DNA of 64,000 bases from Sipunculus nudus. Lineage: Eukaryota; Annelida; Sipuncula; Golfingiida; Sipunculidae. Positions within the stretch are counted from its first letter, which is position 1, and the number at the start of each line of letters is the position of its first letter. This document shows positions 9,280-44,199 of this stretch, one piece after another. The stretch is taken from the NCBI GenBank assembly GCA_026874595.1, contig CM049318.1:57942250-58006249 (forward strand), in the 5' to 3' direction. The notes beneath the pieces were generated by a model. It did no database searches, was not told where the DNA came from, and saw nothing but the letters and a program-made list of their open reading frames with translations. The position numbers and the translations under genes are program-made.

Positions 9280-9603
9280 TTGATGGTGTCAGAGATTTCG
9301 GAATTATCAGAAGCAACTGATCAGTTAAAATCGGTGTGTAAGTCTTATCAATTTAATCACATGAAAAAATATTTTACCATTAAACTTCATCGTCAAATTG
9401 CTAGGATATAGGACAGATTACCCTCTGTGCGCATGTCACGAGGCCGAAGAATGTGTCGAGCACGATATGTTGGAGTGCCATCTCTATAAAGAGAAAAAAC
9501 AAGATCTTTACTCATGTATTAAGTATAAATGTGACAAAGAAGGAATTGAAGTGGGATCGCATGTAAAAATGAAACCTGTAACGCGAAGTGTCAAAACACG
9601 TTA
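9280..9603 (+). pseudogene. Non-LTR retrotransposon ORF2 C-terminus, frameshifted
   Basis: Two overlapping plus-strand frames join by a frameshift at about 9400-9411. The second frame carries the cysteine/histidine motif of LINE polyprotein C-termini, read as CACHEAEECVEHDMLECHLY (C-x-C-x8-H-x4-C), preceded by YRTDYPL. This zinc-knuckle-like segment normally follows the reverse transcriptase domain in Jockey, R1 and related clades. Only the last ~100 residues remain and the reading frame is broken, so it cannot encode an active enzyme. The clade cannot be assigned from this piece. Confidence 0.7.
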
Positions 9604-9634
9604 GACAATATTTCTGTTGTATGAAGATAGAAAG

Positions 9635-10012
9635 TTTAAGAATTGTAGGTAATTCCTGTTAAGAAAGTTCTTACAGTGCCTCTGTGAAGGATGTTTATCT
9701 ATAAGCTGTTAGTAAACATCGTACATGCGCCAATATTGACCAACAGAAAAAAAATATGTAACGAAATGTGACTGGTTGCATATGTGTGGAAGTTGAAAGG
9801 TCACTAAGTACCAAATTTACAAAACTCTGGTTTGTCTGACCGTCCGCCAGATGTCCTTGTTGAATGTGGTTGCATTATTTTGGCCGGCCCTCTACATGGT
9901 ATACACGAGTAGATTTAAACCAAACAAGCAGCTTGTGCACAGTTAGATCGACGGGTTTCTGCCTATTTTCATGAAAGGTTCAAAAAATATCTTTTATCTA
10001 TATGCGTCAGAT
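9635..10012 (+). mobile_element. TTAA MITE family, copy 2 (partial)
   Basis: Matches the body of 8363-8831 in the same orientation, with TAATTCCTGTTAAGAAAGTT, then TGTCCTTGTTGAATGTGGTT, then CATGAAAGGTTCAAAAAATA. The terminal TTAAAGGGGCC sequences are not preserved. Confidence 0.6.
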
Positions 10013-32962: not shown

Positions 32963-33648
32963 AAAAGCAACAGTTAAAGCATTTCGTTTTGCCTATCTCT
33001 GTTAAATATAAGCACGAGGGTATCATTCAAGTCACTTTTGCAAATTTACCTCACAACTTCCAAAGAAATTGCTGTTCTGCTAAGGGTCGTTCCTGCCAGC
33101 GCTAGCATGGCAAAAAACACGCTTACTCTAAGTGATTATATAATAAATCTGATAATATATTTAAGGAAAAATCTTAGCCCTCTAGGAGTTTCTTTCTTAT
33201 TATGTGTCAAAGAAAATTAGATTTAAGAAGATGTATAGAAATACAACCTGTTCTCAGCAAAGGTAGTTTAGGAACACTATGATACCTTGGGTCGAAGGTC
33301 TTCCGCAGTGTCGTAGTAACAAGGCACCAAACCTAATATTAACGCCGAGGTCGTTCGCACTAAATTTTCACTCATGATCTTTTACGGGCACGCGCCGACA
33401 CTATGATTTTTGAGTATTGTGATAAATAATAAAACAGTGACAGCTGGGTTATACCTTAGGCCTATCCGGACTGCGATAACGTCGGATACAGGCTTTCTTG
33501 GTCTGACCCTATCTGTTCTGTGGTCATTACTCATACTTCTGGCTCAGTATCTGCTGATCCGACTCACTTTGTTTCACAGTAAACATTTTCATTTCAATGG
33601 GAATACTTGTTTCACGTTTAAACAACACGTCATATCAACAGAGAGATA
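32963..33648. other. Unique DNA left of the large TIR element
   Basis: No gene recognised. Short open frames of 60-88 codons lack domains. The segment ends in the TA that flanks the element. Confidence 0.3.
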
Positions 33649-34030
33649 CACTGCAAAAACAGTGTTTAGGGCCTAAACACATTTCTAAACGCCTGATTTG
33701 TCTCCACTTTTACCACACGTTTAGCTGCTACACATGTTTAGATTGCATGTGCTTAGCCCTGAAAGTGTTTACGGATGATACACGTTTAGCTGTTTATCAT
33801 GTTCAGGGGCTAAACACATTCCTAAACGCCTGATTTGTCTCCACTTTTACCACACGTTTTGCTGCTACACATGTTTAAATTGCATGTGCTTAGCCCTGAA
33901 AGTGTTTACGGTTGAGACACGTTTAGCTGTTTATCATGTTCAGGGCCTAAACACATTCCTAAACGCCTGATTTGTCCCCACTTTTACCACACGTTTAGCT
34001 GCTAGGCATGTTTAAAACGCACGTGTTTAG
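33649..34030 (+). repeat. Left subterminal array of the TIR element
   Basis: Three units of about 136 bp start at about 33671, 33810 and 33945 with CTAAACACATTCCTAAACGC, followed by GATTTGTCTCCACTTTTACC, CACACGTTTAGCTGCTA, CATGTGCTTAGCCCTGAAAG and GTTTAGCTGTTTATCATG. GTTTAG/CTAAAC occurs repeatedly in both orientations, as expected of transposase-binding subterminal repeats. Confidence 0.75.
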
Positions 34031-34639
34031 CCCTTAATTCATATACACCAGGGATGTATATTATCAAGACTGCCACAGATAAAATACAAAAATCTATATT
34101 GCCTGCTATTCTACTTTACAGTTTGTTAACAACAGCTAATTATCAAAATGTTAAAATAATTGAGCAAAAATCATTTTTAGCATACCAAAGAAAAAAAATA
34201 TAAATTGTGCCCAAAAACTCTTCCACACATCACACCTATCCCCTTCTAGTGCCCACCATTAGCCACTAGCCTTGCTCATTTGTTAAATACACTGGGTATC
34301 TGAATGTTTACATAACAAATGATTTTACTTTCAAAATAAACATTTATTCAAACAAAAGGTATTTATTAACAAAAGATATGTGTGGTTCCAAGCAGCTTAC
34401 ACAAAATACGGCCTGTAGGCCCAATGCAAACCTGTGTAATGAAATAGTAAGTACACTGCTCTTCACTTGTTTCCCCCTACAATATATATTTTTCAAGTTA
34501 ATGAATTTATTTTAACTAGATAAATATCATGAGCACTAAATCTCCTGCCAAATAGGAATGCAAGAAATGTGAACTTTGACTGGTATAATACTAGAGAAAT
34601 TTATCAAAGTTAATAAGAATGCAATGGAAACCCAATAAA

Positions 34640-35110
34640 GTGAGAATACCCATACACATGCCTTAAACACTAGGTATAGAGGTAGATCAAATGACACTTA
34701 TTGACATACAAGATCACATATGAATTACATAAGTCAAAGTTAAAAAGACAATCATTCAATAGTTACTAAAACCTCATCAGCTCAGGAGACCCATACAATA
34801 CACATGACATTATTATTAGAAGTAGGTATGAGTAAAATGTTTTGAGATAACACCTCACATATGAATTATATTAAAACTGTTAAAAAATAAATCAATTAAA
34901 AATATGAAAATCATTCAAGTGTAACCAAAACATAACCAGGTAAGAAGATCCATAGACCCTCTTACAATTTTATTTAAAAGTGGACATGAGTTGCACTTTT
35001 TGAGTAATCCCATACATGTCATGTTTGATTTAAATCTTTTTTTTAATCATAAAAAATTAAAAGATCTTTCAAGAATGACCAAAACGTAATTATCATTTCC
35101 ATACAGAGAG
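34640..35110 (+). repeat. Degenerate tandem units 3' of the cargo gene
   Basis: CACATATGAATTACATAAG at about 34713 recurs as CACATATGAATTATATTAA at 34856, each followed by ATCATTCAA, by ACCAAAAC-like or ACTAAAAC words, and by CATGAGTTG/ATGAGTAAA. A third weaker unit begins near 35014. Period about 143-160. It lies downstream of the stop codon and may be in the 3' UTR. Confidence 0.5.
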
Positions 35111-35591
35111 CTTCAAAAATATTACTACTAACATATACAAACCTAATACATCTCTTGGCATGTTGCAATAAATGTTGATAAATGTATGCCATGGCACATG
35201 TTACAGCTTCTCAAAGTCAACATAAAAGATAAACTAAGTAATAAGTCCAATAACTAAAACTAAGTCCAATAATTCAACCAAAACACTGCAAGCAGAACCA
35301 TTAAAAAAAAATTTAAAAGAATTATTCTAGAGACAACTCCTGTGTCACGCTAACCAATACAGACCTTATTCTTAACTGGAAAAACATTTTGCAGAACGAC
35401 TCTAGCATGTTTACAGAATATAATCAAGTTTTAGTTTCCTGTGACTGGCCAAAGGTACTGAACCAAATGCATATGAACAAAATTACAGAATCAGTTATAT
35501 GACTTTTTTTAACTGCAGTCATATCCTTGAATACAGATTTACAACATTTACCATGTTTATGCACTGGTGTCCATATGTCATCTAGTGATAC

Positions 35592-37684
35592 TTAAATTTC
35601 ATTAAATTTCTTTTCAAATTTTATGTACACAGATGACTTGAAGAAAGGATTTTTGGTGTCACAGATCATGTATCTCTGAAGAAAACCCAAAAGTTGATAC
35701 TCCTTTGGGTATGAAAGGTCCCAGGCATAATATGCCCCTATCAAGCAGTAGAGCACCTGAAATAGACACGAGGTGTCTAGTGTAATTTCCATTGTGTCTG
35801 CCACAAGCCAAGCCTGATCAATCCTTGTTCCATCTTTGGTGGTGTTAACCCTTGGAGGAGACTTTGCAGCACATCCTGTGTCCAAGTCCACTGCCTGCAA
35901 ATTGGTTAAACTTGCATCAGAGCATCGGAAGTAATCTTGAATAAAGGGCTAAACTGTAATATGTGATATACTTGTTTAACAGGGGGTTGATTCTTTTAAG
36001 ATTCTTATGTTATATGACACAAGTTACCTGACTAATTTTTCAAAACACCATGAATTTGGTCTTTGCGTAAGTAAACTTTTATCCATGTTAGTCAAGCCAG
36101 TTTTGTAATCCTAGCATTCATAGCTAAAACTTTCTCATCTGGCCCAGGCATTCCATTTGGTCAAAATGAATTTCATAGTCAGTGTACTAGTAACTGTCCA
36201 TTTACACAGTTTCAACTTGTTGATTTAAAAGTTTTCACCTTTTACATCTTAAGATGGCATACCACTGGTAAATGTGAAAGATCATTCCTATGGCAATTTT
36301 GTTTGATGGATCTGTCCGTTGCACAATTTGTTTTGCTTAAAAGTAGTTTTATACACTTGTATACAAGGATCAACAGTCACCATTATTGATTTTGATACAA
36401 AATCTGACCATACATCATTTGTTTAAATATGTCCCTTAGTTGAGTTTTGTTGTGCTCTCAAGGATAAATGTGGCAGTGCATGCCAAGGCACCAGCCATGG
36501 TATCCCTTGACTTTTCTCAGGGGACGAAAAACATTACATATTATTTCCACTTGATCTGCTCATAACTGAATATAAAAAAAGGTCAGCTTTTGCAGTTATT
36601 CCATTCTTACAACAATCTTCCATACTGCTGAAGATATGATGACATATTTTACCCATCCATGGCCATCATATGCTTTTATCATTTCGGGTAGAATCAGTAA
36701 GCTTAGTATGAGCAGAATCATGAAGAATAAAGTTTTACAGCAAAATAGCCTGGTGTCAAATGTTTTATTAAGAACATGGGCAATCAGCTGAAAATATTTT
36801 TGTGGTTTTAGAATTAATCAAGGATATTAAGTTTTCAGGTTTTCCTGGTGACCATAATACTCGACTTCCACACACCAAATATATCTGAAATGCCAGCATA
36901 TGAGGCAACCAGAGACAGTAAATTATATAACTTCTGAACATAAATATCCCACTTAAAGTTCACATCAAGTGTTCATCAAATATTTAAACTTTTAAAAACA
37001 TATTTTGTCTCCATGACAATACTGATAAACAATAAATAATCAAGGTTGTTCTGTAGATAATGACACCTAACTCCAAGAGGCGAACTTGTTCAAGCAATAA
37101 GTAGCAGTGAGCCAGTACTTACATCAACCACTTCGATTGCTGGCTTCATCTTGTTCTTGAAGCTCAATCTTTTTTGGAGGGCAAGAATTACTTCAAGCTC
37201 TTCCTGTTCCTCATTATACATGTCATCCTGAAAAAAAGACAATTGTGATTAGCCCAACATTTCACAATAATGAAAAATAAAACCATCTTTTTTATGTGTT
37301 AGATCCAATCAAAACTAAAAATACAAGATAAATGATGTAATTTTACAAAAATACAACCCTAAAATAAGGTATAGGAAAGGATACCAAAAACACCATTTAA
37401 TAAACTCTGGGCCCTAAACTTTATTACCACAAATGTATAAGCTTTTTCCATTTATTGTACACAGGTTCTATAAATACACTGATGATGATAGAGTCAAGAA
37501 GTTCTATAAAAACTGTTCTTTTTTAGAATATTAAATTCCCTTTCTAGTGTTTTCTCCCTTTAAACACTGGAATTTCAAAAATGGGTTTTACCTCTTTCTC
37601 CAATTCAGTCATTGAAATGGTCACATCCAGGATGTTGGTTAGTTTGTCCATCATTTCGTTGTATGATGCTTTTGTATCATCCAT
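35592..37684 (-). CDS. SAMD3-like C-terminal domain protein, spliced, 166 aa
   Basis: Coding exons are 37684-37592 (31 codons), 37227-37123 (35 codons) and 35894-35592 (100 codons plus stop). Introns begin GTAAAA and GTAAGT and end TTTTTTTCAG and ATTTGCAG; all joins are phase 0 and the frame stays open. The start is the first ATG after an in-frame stop in exon 1, if exon 1 joins exon 2 directly; ten more open codons precede it in exon 2. Exons 2-3 are acidic and probably helical (YNEEQEELEVILALQKR). The last exon ends in a domain with YYAWDLSYPKEYQLLGFLQ. From memory, an aromatic-D-x-x-YPK segment then FLQ marks the C-terminus of SAMD3-like/uncharacterised proteins in fishes and molluscs. The SAM domain and the long middle region of those proteins are absent, so this is a short or truncated member. 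Function unknown. It lies inside the 33649-44055 TIR element. Confidence 0.65.
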
Positions 37685-38130
37685 TTGAATGAGGCTTTCA
37701 AACTCCAGTACAATCTGAGAAAGGATTGAAGCTTTTTACAGAATGTTTGCACCTTCTTTTAAAGGCATTTAAAGGGAGTGACTGTTATTACATTAGCAAA
37801 AGTAGTCATAGATGCTTTAATTCAACATATCACACTAAGTTTAACACAAACATACTACTACATCAGGGTAAAGGAAAGCAGGCAATCTCATAGACAAGTT
37901 TCAGTATTAACATGACTTAAATATAAAATAAAAGACCCACAGTTTAGTGTGCTCAGTTGAATTGAATATTTGTATAAAATCCTAGCATATGGTAAAGGAT
38001 CAACAGTTATTATATATTTTCTATATCCAGGTCACTGAAATATTTAAGTACAACTATTTCATATACAAGAATTACCTTTATCTCACTTCTCATTTGACCA
38101 CATAAAGACAACACATTTGGTGTTGAATGG

Positions 38131-39015
38131 TGTTACTTTGGAGCCCCATAGCTAAAAGAATATGAGTAACTGAGACCTAATTTCAGGTTTCTAAGAAGAC
38201 ATATCATGGGTCTCCCAGTATGTCAGAATATAATAGGTCCAGTCATTACCTTTGTATCCTGTTAACAGATGACCACTTTTCAAGGTCTCGAAAAAATACA
38301 GGTAAAAAACTGTAAATAGTCGAAAAAATAAAGGTGGTGCCACCAGTCTGCAGAACCTGATGAAACATCCCTAACCAATTTCCATGCTAAAAATCATAAT
38401 GATCCATGAAATACATGTTGAGATATTTAAGGTTTGTATTTAATTTTCCATTATCCTGGGGGTTACTTTGGAACACCATAGGTAAAAGAATATGAGTAAC
38501 AGAGACCTAATTTCAGGTTTCCAAGAAGACATATCATGGGCCTCCCAGTATTTCAAAAAAGAAGATTCTAGGATTAGTCGTAAACTGTGTGTCCTGTTAA
38601 CAGATGACTGCATTTTTCAAAGTCTCAAAAATACAGAAAAAAAATGGTAAAAAATTGAAAAAAATAGATGGTGCCACCAGTCTGCAGAAACTGATGATAC
38701 ATCCCATGACCAGTATCCTTGCTAAAAATCATGATGATCCATGCATTAGTTGTTGAGATATTTGAGGTTTTGTGTTAAATTTTCCATTATTCTGGGGGGT
38801 ACTTCAGAGCCCACTAGATCGGAGGATATAGATCAAAGTGACCGAATTTCAGGTTTGCAAGGGGAATTTTCATGGTCCTCTCAGAATGTCAAATTACAGG
38901 ATGCTAGTTCCAGCATTTGTGGTTTGTGCCCTGTTAATGGACAGAGGCCCATTGCCAGACAGACAACTGACAAAGAGGGTTTGCTATAGCTCAGATGACT
39001 TACAGTCAGCTAAGC
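38131..39015 (+). repeat. Tandem repeat, period about 330-338, three units
   Basis: Units begin TGTTACTTTGGAGCCCCATA (38131), GGTTACTTTGGAACACCATA (38461) and GGTACTTCAGAGCCCACTAG (38799). Within them CTAATTTCAGGTTTC, CCTCCCAGTAT, GTGCCACCAGTCTGCAGAA and AAATTTTCCATTAT-type words recur. A related tail reappears at about 41690-41870 (GACAGACAAAGAGAATCAC against GACAACTGACAAAGAGGG), so the TIR element at 39483-41205 probably split this array. Confidence 0.75.
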
Positions 39016-39606
39016 TAAAAATTGCTTAGGCCCACAAAAGGTTATTTTTCACCTACCTTTTTTCAGAAACAAGTGCAGGGAGCCAATTTTTTACCTTTTT
39101 ATTACTTCTTTTTTTTAAATTCAATAACCAACCTAATTTTTTAGCTTTAATTTTTAATTTTAAGATTTTAACTGATTAAATACTTACATTTACATACTGT
39201 TAAATCAACAATACGTACAGGTAAATAATAAGTCACAGTACAAAATTAGCAAAATTTTTTGTGCTGATTTTAAATAACTTAAAAAATTTACAAAATTAAT
39301 CTTATTATTTATACAGAATTGAATTTTGAATAAATAAAATTATATCCCTGAACAAAAATCTATAGCTATAGCTATTCATAGGTTAGGTGACTAAATATCT
39401 TCTTGATTTTTTACACATTGCATTATGTTCAGGCCCATAACCTCTAGAAACTAGAATACGGGTAGTCGACATGCGACTACGTGTATCCGCCTAAATCAGA
39501 GTGGAACGGGTGAAGTGAGGCATGGATTAAGTGGCAAGGGGAAACAGAGTGAAGTGTTGCATATTAGCATGGATGTCTGCAGCCAAATTGTGTATGAAGG
39601 TTGCCA

Positions 39607-39628
39607 CCCCCCCCCCCCCCCCCCCCCC
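39607..39628 (+). repeat. Poly-C tract (22)
   Basis: Twenty-two consecutive C, the longest homopolymer of the window, at the left edge of the 280-bp array. Confidence 0.95.
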
Positions 39629-39629
39629 A

Positions 39630-40978
39630 CCACAAAATCCAGAGGGCCGTCCCAGTTGTATACATATGCAAAATTTAAGGCAGATAATTCAAACCACTAC
39701 ATGTACATGAGTGATTTTAGCCCGTGGCAGACAATCAGATGGACGCTGAGCAAAAATGGTTGCAGGTGACGGCACCAGTTTTGCATATGATAAAGAGCTA
39801 TGTGAGAACTATACACATGCAAAACTTTGGCCCAATCGGTCAAACGGTTCCCAAGATATGAGCTTGGAAGTCTGCTGCATAAACAAGAATGCAGGTGGCT
39901 CCACCTGTCATAAAATCAAGAGAGCTGTCGGGGATGTATAAACCTGCAAAATTTTAGCCAGATATGTCAAACCACTAACGAGATATGAGTGATTTTATCC
40001 CATGGCAGACAAACAGACAGGAGCTGTGCAAAAATGGCTGCAGGTGGCACCACCAGTTTTGCGTATGTTATAAAGCTCTCCAAGGGCTACATTTGTGCAA
40101 AAAAATTTTCCTGATCGGTCAAACGGTTCCCGAGATATGAGCTTGGATGTCTGCAGCGTAAACGTGAATGTAGGTGGCGCCACCTGTCATAAAATCAGGA
40201 AAGCTATCCAGGATGTATACGCATGCCGAATTTCAGGTGAATTAGTCAAGTCACTGCAGAGATATGAGTGATTTTAACCCAAGGCAGACAAACAGATGGA
40301 CACTGTGCAAACATGGTTGCAGGTGGCGCCACCATTTTTTGTGTATGTTATAAAGCTCTCCAAGGGCTACATTTGTGCAAAAAAATTTTCCTGATCGGTC
40401 AAACGGTTCCCGAGATATGAGCTTGGATGTCTGCAGCGTAAACGTGAATGTAGGTGGCGCCACCTGTCACAAAATCAGAAAAGCCATCCAGGATGTATCC
40501 GCATGCCAAATTTCAGGTGAATTAGTCAAGTCACTGCAGAGATATGAGTGATTTTAACCCATGGCAGACGAACAGATGGACACTGTGCAAACATGGTTGC
40601 AGGTGGCGCCACCATTTTTTGTGTATGTTATAAAGCTCTCCAAGGGCTACATTTGTGCAAAAAAATTTTCCTGATCGGTCAAACGGTTCCCGAGATATGA
40701 GCTTGGATGTCTGCAGCGTAAACGTGAATGTAGGTGGCGCCACCTGTCACAAAATCAGAAGAGCCATCCAGGATGTATACGCATGCCAAATTTCAGATGA
40801 ATTTGTCAAGTCACTGCAGAGATATGAGTGATTTTAACCTAAGGCAGACGAACAGATGGACACTGTGCAAACATGGTTGCAGGTGGCGCCACCATTTTTT
40901 GTGTATGTTAGAAAGCTCTCCAAGGGCTACATTTGTGCAAAAAAATTTTCCTGATCCGTCAAACGGTTCCCGAGATAT
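39630..40978 (+). repeat. 280-bp tandem repeat, about five units
   Basis: Unit anchors are near 39634, 39911, 40190, 40470 and 40750. Each has GAGATATGAGTGATTTTA, GGTTGCAGGTGGCGCCACCA, CCAAGGGCTACATTTGTGCA, TTTTCCTGATCGGTCAAACG and GATGTCTGCAGCGTAAACG. The last three are nearly identical, the first two more diverged. The 62- to 70-codon minus-strand frames recurring every 280 bases are by-products of the repeat. Confidence 0.9.
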
Positions 40979-41912
40979 GTGGGTTTATGTGTGGAAACAG
41001 ACGCACAAACGGATGCAGAGCGCAGAGGAAAGGTCAGAGGTCAAAACAAAATCGGGGCGCAGCAGTTCACATGTGACCCGAACATAATCCCGGGTTTCGT
41101 AAAATTCCGCCCAGCGGTTACGGAGGAGTTCTCCGGAAACCTACGCGGCGGCGGCAGCGTGCAGCTGAAAACATAGTATCCGCAAAACTCTGTTTTGGCG
41201 GATACAATTACATAATACTGACCTGGTTCCTGGTATTTTCAAAGGAAAAATATAGAGGAGTATGTATATACAATTTGATAAAAAAACGGATCAGTGGTTT
41301 TGACAACAGGCAGTTTTTAGTGTAACAATGAGTTTTTAATGAAAAATTCAGGTTTCTAATTTATATCTCAAAGGAATAACGTCGTAACAAAAACGCAGTT
41401 TTCAGTATGGAAGGAGATTCTGGGGACATTTATGCCAAATTTTTTATCTGTAGGTCCAATGGCTTTTGTATAAAATTTTAATTTTTACTCAAAATGGAAT
41501 AATCACCACAATTTTTATCTTTCTTTAAAAGAGGTGGATGGCTAAACTCTGCAAAACTTTGCATGATGGCAGTCTGTCTTAAACATCAACTTGAGCAACA
41601 TTATTATATTTGATGAACAAACAGATATTTGTTCAATAGCCTTGATCACTGGCAAGCATTTGTGTGAGTGCTACAAAATGTTTTTTGCCCATACTAGGTC
41701 ACAATGACCTAAATTGGGCATCTAGGTCTGAGATTTCCCGGGAACCCTGGATGTGGAGTAAGAAATTACTAGATCAGACAGTCGATATGTTACCTGTTAA
41801 CTGAGTTGGCCACCAAGATGACAGACAAAGAGAATCACTTTAGCTCAGGTAACTTGAAGTCAGCTGAGTTGATAATGATACAATATAATAAAAACATAAT
41901 ACATGAATAATA

Positions 41913-41915
<3 letters not shown>

Positions 41916-41959
<44 letters not shown>
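41916..41959. repeat. (TA)n microsatellite
   Basis: TA dinucleotides directly abutting the pogo-like end. Confidence 0.97.
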
Positions 41960-41962
<3 letters not shown>

Positions 41963-42130
41963 CAGTGAAACCCCGGGCTATGGACACCCCTCTGGGATGG
42001 ACACCCCACCTAACGGGCATTTTTGGGACAATCGAGCATTTTTACTCTTTTAAGAACAACTCTGGGGGAGACACCCCGCTATTCAGGACAACAGACACTT
42101 TTTGTCAGCCTGATGCCTAAAATCACCCCG
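41963..42130 (+). mobile_element. pogo/Tigger-like element, left end
   Basis: Starts CAGTGAAACCCCGGGCTATG and continues with GACACCCC repeats, the pattern of Tigger/pogo terminal repeats. It inserted at a TA array, consistent with TA target preference. No matching right end in the next kilobase. Confidence 0.55.
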
Positions 42131-42159
42131 GCTAACCATATAAAACCGTAGTGTTTTGA

Positions 42160-42277
42160 TGCCGTTCCTGGGTCACAGTGTTCAGTACATCATTGTGGAG
42201 CTGTCATAAGTTGATGGAAAAAATTAATGCATTATTCACTACCAACCAATTTTGTGCACACTATATGAATGCCATAT

Positions 42278-42335
<58 letters not shown>

Positions 42336-42570
42336 TATATATTTTAAAAGAAAATCCACACCGTGCACACCCTCCCCTCCCCCTCGGGAGTGATTAATAT
42401 CTCAGATTAAAATACAGAAGCGGTTCCAAGTTTTTTTAGGGGCTTCAGACAAAATTTTCCCGCCTGGACCCCCCTTTTTCAGACCTGAGGACCTTTTTTT
42501 TAGGGTTTTCATTTGTCCTCCTGGGTTGGACCCCCCTTTTCCTAAATCCTGGATCCGCCCCTGAAATATG
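42160..42570 (+). mobile_element. hAT-like remnant ending CCTGGATCCGCCCCTG
   Basis: Shares GGGTCACAGTGTTCAGTAC, GTCATAAGTTGATGG, TTAATGCATTATTCACTACC and CCTGGACCCCCC with 44200-44460, and ends in the inverted CAGGGGCGGATCCAGGA terminus used by a common hAT-type MITE family. A (TA)n array (42279-42342) has grown inside it. Confidence 0.5.
42279..42342. repeat. (TA)n microsatellite with one interruption
   Basis: TA dinucleotides interrupted once by TAAAATA near 42328. Confidence 0.95.
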
Positions 42571-42835
42571 TAGGCAGAATTGGCCAAGCAGACCAAATGA
42601 CCAGTTCAGCAGTTGAAATGATCGTATCGGGTCAGAACAAGGGTGACATAATGACTAGTCAAGTACAGTATCAAGGTAGAAAAATGACCTGAATCCATCT
42701 GGTGAACAATGCACCCAGTTCTGGAGTTGAGAACAACTTAATAAAATCCTCGCTTCCCTCTGTCAGTGCGATTAGTCTCAATATTCTGCACAAACAATTT
42801 GTAACAGCAAATGACAGGAAGAACAATATACTTAC

Positions 42836-42978
42836 CAATACATGAAGAAAGAAATTTAGAATGCACCGAGTAGAAATGGTAGGCCTACTTCCGCTCTGAT
42901 CAACAACTGATGCCGACTTCTCACACTGAATCCGAAAGGCGCGGGGTCGTCAGCAGCAACAACCAATCAGCACTGCCC
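42836..42978 (-). other. Exon 1 (5' UTR) of the SAMD3-like gene
   Basis: Ends in a consensus donor, TATTG then GTAAGTATATTG on the minus strand. Its 5' end is put about 25-30 bases downstream of the TATA box. It is GC-richer and CpG-richer than its surroundings. In the frame that reaches the ATG in exon 2 there is a stop at 42952-42950 and no ATG after it. Near its end an out-of-frame ATG TAT would be completed by exon 2 to a two-codon upstream ORF. Direct joining to exon 2 is assumed. Confidence 0.5.
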
Positions 42979-43003
42979 GCGGTGACGACACCAGCCTGAC
43001 TGT

Positions 43004-43011
43004 TATTTATA
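43004..43011 (-). promoter_or_regulatory. TATA box of the SAMD3-like gene
   Basis: TATAAATA on the minus strand within GGCGGTTATAAATAACAGTC, a GC-rich context, about 168 bases upstream of the exon 1 donor. An ATTGG (inverted CCAAT) lies in the transcribed side near 42962-42966. A strong core promoter match. Confidence 0.55.
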
Positions 43012-43164
43012 ACCGCCCGTCTGCCCGCGTGCACTTGTACTTAAAAGGTTCTAAATGCGAAACAATTGTAAAACATAAAAGTAGATACATTATGATAGGC
43101 CTACGTAACATGCCACGTAACATGCCACGCTGTTGGCACTAAGGTTTTAATTTTTTAAGGTATT

Positions 43165-43500
43165 AATTTAATAGGCCCGGTGGCGGAAGGGAGGGGGGGG
43201 GGGGTTAAAATTGATAATTAATTTTATTTATTCTTTTTTTTTTCGTTTATTTTTTTTGCCGGACAAAACTCTCATATATTATTTGCTTAACAAATAAAAA
43301 CCGATTCTACTACCAGAAGCAACAGGATTTTGAAAAGGGAGGTGTGGGGGTGTCAAACTCTATAGCTCGTCCGGGGAAAGGGGGGGGGGGGAGGGTTAGG
43401 AGTCTAGGTGGCAAAATTTGGTATTAAACATTAAAATATATATATATTTGGGCTCGAAAAGAGGAGGTACAGACCCTTAGGACTCTCTTTACCCCTGAAT
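43165..43500. mobile_element. hAT-like remnant (GGCGGA ... AATCCGCCACTG)
   Basis: Starts near GGCCCGGTGGCGGAAGGG and ends CCCCTGAATCCGCCACTGCA, giving a short inverted GTGGCGGA terminus. The interior has two G11 runs (about 43192 and 43381). Confidence 0.4.
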
Positions 43501-43594
43501 CCGCCACTGCACACACACACACACTCATACACAATTATTTTACACACACATAAATCTATAATAGCCTATACTTGTTATGCTAAACACATTGCTA

Positions 43595-44055
43595 TATGGA
43601 TGTATGAATACCGATGTGTTTAAACGCTAAACACGTTTAACCTTCAAACGAGCCGCACCATGGTGTTTAGCATTGGAGGTGTTAACTTAACCATGTGCCT
43701 TTAATTATCATTAGGCTAAACATTTTGTCAGACATGTAACGCTGCTAAATGTGTTTTACAAAATGTGTTTATATGCTAATCACGTTTAACCTTAGAACGG
43801 GTCGCACCATTGTGTTTAGCAATCGAGGTGTTTAGCATTTGTGTTTAGCATAACCATTTGCTTTATATAACCCTATATAATTGTTAGGCTAAACATTTTG
43901 TCAGACATGTAACGCTGCTAAACGTGTTTTGCAATATGACACATTTCGTTCCTAGTGGACCTATATATGTTTTGCTTTAAAACACATTCCTAAACGTTTA
44001 TAGGATTAAAACATGTTCCAGATGTGCTTAAATGCTAAACACTGTTTTTAGAGTG
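43595..44055 (-). repeat. Right subterminal array of the TIR element
   Basis: Two units of about 150-170 bp, at about 43621 and 43760, share ATCACGTTTAACCTTAGAAC-like, GCACCATGGTGTTTAGCA-like, AGGCTAAACATTTTGTCAG and ATGTAACGCTGCTAAA sequence. Near the tip, AACACATTCCTAAACGTTTA repeats the motif that starts each left-array unit. CTAAAC/GTTTAG words are dense. Confidence 0.7.
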
Positions 44056-44199
44056 TATTATTCTACTCATGGTGTCAAACCTATAGTGTTGTTTATATAG
44101 TCCAGGCAATATTCGACATGATAAGTTATTAAGTCGCGAATTCTAATTCCTATTCTAATAATTGTTTTCACCGTATACTATATATTTATATAATTATAT

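Follow-up and report, generated by a model that had tools for sequence, protein, structure and literature searches.

A CACTA/EnSpm-like element of Sipunculus nudus, probably an internal-deletion form of a transposon in which a transposase is nested within a SAMD3-like gene

The window analysed in this study, a stretch of 64,000 nucleotides of the Sipunculus nudus genome (assembly GCA_026874595.1, contig CM049318.1, positions 57,942,250 to 58,006,249 of the forward strand), harbors a mobile element of 10,407 bp at positions 33649..44055, bounded by terminal inverted repeats (TIRs). The element is very probably a non-autonomous CACTA/EnSpm-like copy, the full form of which would consist of a SAMD3-like gene with a transposase nested in it, an internal deletion having left the tail of the gene in the window. 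The observed support for this comprises the ends, the target-site duplications, the empty sites of one sister copy (L020), a deletion junction common to three copies, the gene order in a full-form copy and compatible exon phases. SAMD3-like proteins combine a SAM domain at the N-terminus with a distinctive C-terminal region; the name is applied provisionally to the present gene, following a first-pass annotation of this DNA made from the sequence alone.

Results

The left end of the element, read from 33649, is CACTGCAAAAACAGTGTTTAG, and the right end, read inverted from 44055, is CACTCTAAAAACAGTGTTTAG, with TA outside each. The two TIRs (33649..33669 on the plus strand and 44035..44055 on the minus strand) start with CACTG and CACTC, respectively, and pair at 19 of 21 positions. 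The TA dinucleotides at 33647..33648 and 44056..44057 were assigned as the target-site duplication from the reading of the flanks and from a search with the joined flanks, which matched the two sides with a 2-nt overlap. Internal to the TIRs, both ends continue into subterminal arrays dense in CTAAAC/GTTTAG. Tandem-repeat and hexamer counts delimited 2.7 units of 137 bp at 33663..34034, while repeat families and hexamer counts placed diverged units, with copies spaced 149 and 173 bp, at 43580..44034. Counted on both strands, the first 400 nt of the element contain 13 CTAAAC hexamers (6 plus, 7 minus) and the last 495 nt contain 11 (7 plus, 4 minus), far above the means of 0.33 and 0.38 (maxima 3 and 5) obtained for the left and right ends, respectively, from 2,000 dinucleotide shuffles; the element interior holds 4 occurrences and the window beyond the element holds 20. 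The number of subterminal units differs among copies, since the full-form copy at C4:71910465 (L016), described below, has about three additional 137-bp units at its left end, judged from blast offsets.

The 1.43-Gb genome was searched with the left 401 nt and the right 400 nt of the element; as the search scores the best candidates only, the resulting counts are lower bounds. The left end gave at least 27 rows at at least 24 places and the right end at least 24 rows at at least 23 places. A right end in the expected orientation, at a distance of about 5.5–19.7 kb, was faced by 22 of the 24 left-end places, which are spread over many chromosomes, and the same last exon of the SAMD3-like gene (exon C) was present between the ends in 18 of these 22 pairs. 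Left ends at C17:21.3M and C7:34.4M and a right end at C2:70.1M were unpaired. The possibility that such ends exist solely as short miniature inverted-repeat transposable elements (MITEs) was not borne out: no short MITE was found among the 22 paired copies, all of which are at least about 5.5 kb long, although very short MITEs may escape a 400-nt query.

Of the 20 fetched copies, 18 have a left end that reads CACTGC, CACTGT, or CACTCT; the exceptions are L009, with its first base changed, and L018, with the end lost. Matching 2-bp duplications were found in 14 of the 16 copies with both flanks readable (nine TA, three CA, and two TG), L009 being included after allowing one changed terminal base. 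They are 2 bp only, as the flanks differ beyond the matching dinucleotides. In all 14, the dinucleotide is a pyrimidine-purine step, hinting at a preferred target. In the 20 fetched copies, similarity to the window sets in at the element end or no more than a few bases away from it, or just inside it in L018, and none of them has the left flank of the window, because the matches stop within a few bases of the 200-nt flank included in the query. A copy on C6 (L009) shows 98.7% identity with the window copy across 33650–43445 (9.8 kb), its homology beginning at the element end, and a copy on C12 (L010) is 98.4% identical over its longest block. The 60 nt on either side of 13 copies appeared unrelated by eye.

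Evidence for insertion came from the copy L020, for which 38 other repeat copies were listed and 18 of these span the joined point without the element, at 75–86% identity (the best 40 of 761 candidates were scored). The right flank of L020 sits in a dispersed repeat, and its empty sites are paralogous. For the window copy, the joined flanks matched only their own two sides in this one assembly, and no empty sites for 13 copies were seen among the loci fetched. It was considered whether the stretch is no transposon, but a segmental duplication or a repeat-rich gene with inverted ends arising by chance, as the shortness of the inverted repeats (21 bp) and the single copy in the window might suggest. 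Such an explanation retains virtually no probability and was ruled out by the 22 paired copies on many chromosomes, by the homology borders at or near the element end and by the L020 empty sites. The stretch 33649–44055 is a real mobile element. The claims of the first-pass annotation regarding a TIR element with TA outside both ends, CACT termini, duplications of 2–3 bp, and subterminal repeat arrays are thus in agreement with the ends, the flanks, and the genome-wide pairing.

A full-form copy was identified on C4 (L016 and L044). It spans C4:71910465-71930050 (19,586 bp) with the same ends and TA/TA flanks, and its identity with the window copy is 98.6% over 33663–39450 and 92.6% over the right part. 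Its inner ∼10.6 kb contain, on the minus strand and in this order, an exon for the first half of a putative SAM domain, a transposase frame, an exon for the second SAM half, and another three SAMD3-like exons. The transposase frame starts 56 nt after the first-SAM-half exon, shows N-terminal C2H2-like fingers, and has a stop at its end. With exon borders predicted from splice signals, the SAM and SAMD3-like exons join exons A, B, and C of the window gene in compatible phases with no stop, giving a putative protein of ∼485 amino acids (aa) of which the window gene represents the last three exons. The SAM part matched SAM_2 (E = 0.041; profile positions 3–59 of 66) and SAM_1 (E = 0.12), the only families listed. 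Among solved structures, SAM domains were found at E 0.38 or worse, behind unrelated chains.

Comparison with the C4 copy placed a deletion junction at 41462..41466 of the window, where ∼10.6 kb of the C4 copy are missing, i.e., the transposase frame, both SAM exons, and three more SAMD3-like exons. The comparison marks the window copy as a derivative formed by internal deletion. The same junction is present in L009 and L010, both of which align straight through 41462–41466, and the divergence is 1.3–1.6%. The common junction is therefore most simply explained by movement of the deletion derivative after the deletion. No transposase frame was visible among the open frames inspected in the window copy. 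The absence of a transposase noted in the first-pass annotation hence applies to this copy and not to the family, given the frame in the C4 copy. Similarly, the proposal of a cargo-bearing or non-autonomous element was upheld as regards a large non-autonomous element, whereas captured host-like cargo was not supported, as the C4 gene wraps around the transposase frame.

The gene tail in the window copy lies on the minus strand and consists of exon A (37592..37714, 41 codons), exon B (37123..37227, 35 codons), and exon C (35592..35894, the last exon with the stop). Exons A and B were each found in 9 and exon C in 16 of the 20 fetched copies besides the window. All three exons are in phase 0 with splice sites present, and together encode 176 aa. 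A promoter-like TATAAATA (43011–43004) and a putative non-coding first exon with a GT donor at 42835 occupy 42836..43011 on the minus strand, a region that is kept in 12 of the 20 fetched loci and that would be transcribed and spliced. The well-formed gene of the first-pass annotation was thus confirmed in its exons, splice sites, stop, and promoter-like TATA, but it is only the 176-aa tail of a longer gene. This 176-aa protein showed no Pfam match of note, and no convincing upstream coding exons were seen in the other fetched copies, several of which bear stops or frame changes in exons A–C. Variants of these exons among the copies, each counted once, comprised 60 replacement or stop changes versus 26 silent changes (ratio 0.57; p = 0.02 in a simple binomial test that ignores the relatedness of the copies), which is weak evidence that selection may once have acted on the gene.

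The pieces of the C4 transposase frame were searched separately. At least 90 genomic rows, C4 itself among them, matched the first piece, of 480 aa; identity is 32–36% for the best long relatives, several of which have open frames of >800 aa. The locus L046 contains a frame of 811 codons that is 36–37% identical to the two C4 pieces aligned. The Pfam model Transposase_21 (PF02992) of CACTA/EnSpm elements matched seven places in the genome, one of which is L047 (E = 6.5e-15), and a BLASTP comparison of L046 with L047 gave E = 2e-7 over ∼220 aa. The C4 frame reaches Transposase_21 through these two intermediates only, L046 and L047. Owing to this bridge, the element is called CACTA/EnSpm-like, without assignment to an exact branch.

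The association of a SAM exon with a transposase was found to extend beyond this family. At L046, an exon for the second SAM half lies just upstream of the transposase. A genome search with this exon gave 21 places, 12 of which (including that of the query) are situated 13–51 nt upstream of a same-strand transposase match, the chance expectation for such pairs being ∼0.0001. Examples of these pairs are located at C2:35706673, C10:46223788, and C15:10172498. In five of the 12 pairs, the SAM exons are 49–62% identical to those of a near-identical family that accounts for the other pairs, and the transposases are more divergent. The placement of the SAM exon next to related transposases makes it most likely that the SAMD3-like gene is a property of the element lineage, and the pairing of SAM exon and transposase, judged from these sequence relationships, predates the family of the C4 and window copies.

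Several observations weigh against this interpretation. With regard to the copies, two (L023, TG/TT; L024, CA/GG) are without a matching duplication; the complete gene set was present in one copy only, as the 19.7-kb copy on C11 (L024) is without it; and the transposase frame of the C4 copy is broken in at least two places. With regard to the proteins, both SAM matches are below the Pfam cut-offs; no Pfam transposase model, Transposase_21 included, directly matched the C4 pieces or L046; the sole Pfam hint in the C4 pieces was DUF4218 (E = 0.05); and the AlphaFold model of L046 had a mean predicted local distance difference test score of 34 and was not used. With regard to the pairing, seven of the 12 SAM–transposase pairs belong to the one near-identical family; nine of the 21 SAM places have no transposase among the matches listed; and the layouts differ, since the transposase is preceded by the first SAM half and followed by the second in C4, but preceded by the second in L046. 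The last exon of the SAMD3-like gene adjoins none of the other listed transposases, the nearest pair being 28 kb apart, and of its 22 divergent relatives, only one has a listed transposase within 100 kb.

The lack of a direct Transposase_21 match, together with the restriction of the 14 matching duplications to TA, CA, or TG, could point to an element of another CMC branch (such as Mirage) or of an unnamed CACT-ended group and not of CACTA/EnSpm proper. This assignment, which overlaps with the one adopted here, is unlikely. The Chapaev branch of CMC is characterized by a target-site duplication of 4 bp, which was not seen. BLASTP ties L046 to a Transposase_21 protein, and SmTRC1 of Schistosoma mansoni, an animal CACTA-type element, likewise has 2-bp duplications (in 7 of 14 copies; PMC1636069).

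Another explanation is cargo capture, in which a host SAMD3-like gene would have been taken up once in the family ancestor and its layout around the transposase in C4 would be secondary. It draws on the 21 of 22 divergent last exons without a listed transposase within 100 kb and on the different order of SAM exon and transposase in C4 and L046, and gene capture by animal TIR elements has been described (PMC8277862). Cargo capture was nevertheless judged to be quite improbable. A single late capture would not account for SAM exons next to both one close transposase family and five transposases of greater divergence. Exon C has at least 18 close places in the genome (84–100% identity), all within copies of the element, and 22 divergent places (34–54%) elsewhere; no close parental exon C was found outside the element among the close matches listed, a lost or distant parent being possible. 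Moreover, 17 of the 22 divergent last exons are in one second repeat family (L048), and therefore they are not simple host genes and represent few independent cases. The L048 family (L048:2001-4001 = C17:3852400-3854400) has 17 full-length matches at 96–100% identity on many chromosomes, its own place included, while neither its ends nor any transposase was seen. Besides the present element, a second repeat family thus carries a SAMD3-like exon to multiple places in this genome. Captured host cargo was accordingly set aside in favor of a gene belonging to the element, given the C4 gene around the transposase and the SAM exons beside related transposases. Within the Sipunculus nudus genome, the exon C copies and the L048 family lend support to the suggestion in the first-pass annotation that the multiple copies of SAMD3-like genes could be due to such elements.

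The introns of the window gene contain additional repeats. A 1.75-kb block at 39451..41205, with a 280-bp minisatellite, belongs to the intron of the window subfamily; by alignment of the copies it is missing from the C4 copy and L026, and an inverted match is present in L025. Repeats of ∼335 bp occupy 38096–38907, with additional copies in L011, L025, and L027, and the stretch upstream of the SAMD3-like exon in L048 resembles them by eye. In L024, at 9417–9998 from the left end, there is a frame resembling the first open reading frame of a long interspersed nuclear element, as if a retrotransposon had inserted.

Discussion

The arrangement of the C4 copy suggests that the full form would express two products from the same strand, a SAM-domain SAMD3-like protein and a transposase with C2H2-like fingers. 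The transposase frame would lie within the intron between the two exons that form the SAM domain, and, judging from this layout, both products may be served by a single promoter close to the right end. The SAMD3-like protein would result when the transposase exon is skipped, and the transposase when it is used, after the model of tnpA/tnpD of maize Spm. The internal deletion would have taken out the transposase along with the first half of the SAMD3-like gene and kept the promoter region, the ends, and the last three exons, and the deleted form would be moved by transposase supplied in trans. The SAM fold is known for polymer formation. The SAMD3-like protein could be a helper that gathers the transposase at the CTAAAC-rich ends by SAM–SAM contact; it would polymerise on the subterminal repeats and thereby join the ends or control the element, similar to TNPA, an unrelated protein, in Spm. 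As a tentative generalization, somewhat short of an even chance, an animal CACTA-like lineage may encode a SAMD3-like partner of its transposase from the same unit, and multi-copy 'SAMD3-like' genes (perhaps SAMD3 itself) may be this partner, mobile, left behind, or domesticated.

SAMD3-like proteins have many annotated copies in fish and invertebrates and are usually listed as host genes. A gene that resembles captured host cargo is most likely here a part of the transposon's own equipment, and therefore the counts of animal 'SAMD3-like' genes may partly be counts of transposon copies. The element would also represent an animal case of the Spm design, in which a transposase is accompanied by an unrelated helper on the same strand, the helper in this case having a SAM domain. 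With only 1.3% divergence between the window copy and its nearest sister, direct tests of splicing, of movement, and of binding to the CTAAAC repeats are feasible. CACTA elements, their deletion derivatives, and their alternative products are already known. In the openly licensed literature searched, no earlier report was found of a SAM-domain or SAMD3-like product paired with a transposon, nor of a second product of this kind wrapped around the transposase.

Maize En/Spm is the founder of CACTA. Its target-site duplication is 3 bp as compared with 2 bp in the present element, and its second product, TNPA, is not known to have a SAM domain, in contrast to the SAM/SAMD3-like product proposed here. 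Unlike that of maize En/Spm, the transposase of the present element has C2H2-like fingers and sits between two SAM exons. The two systems are alike in their CACT ends, subterminal repeats, and deletion derivatives, and the two spliced products that En/Spm makes from one transcription unit would have a counterpart in the window element family (in part from PMC1636069).

Among animal elements, SmTRC1 is similar to the present element in being of CACTA type with 2-bp duplications and internal tandem repeats, and it has alternatively spliced transcripts (PMC1636069). The same report suggests that the ends of animal relatives have a CCC core, as against CACT here, and the Transposase_21 domain of SmTRC1 was directly recognised, whereas C4 and L046 gave no direct match to it; the available part of the report makes no mention of a SAM-type second protein (PMC1636069). 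Animal Pack-TIR elements resemble the window copy in being TIR elements with a non-transposase gene inside and no transposase (PMC8277862). Their captured fillers, however, are short (median 224 bp) and derived from sequence other than transposable elements (PMC8277862), whereas the window gene is most probably native to the element and a remnant of the deletion.

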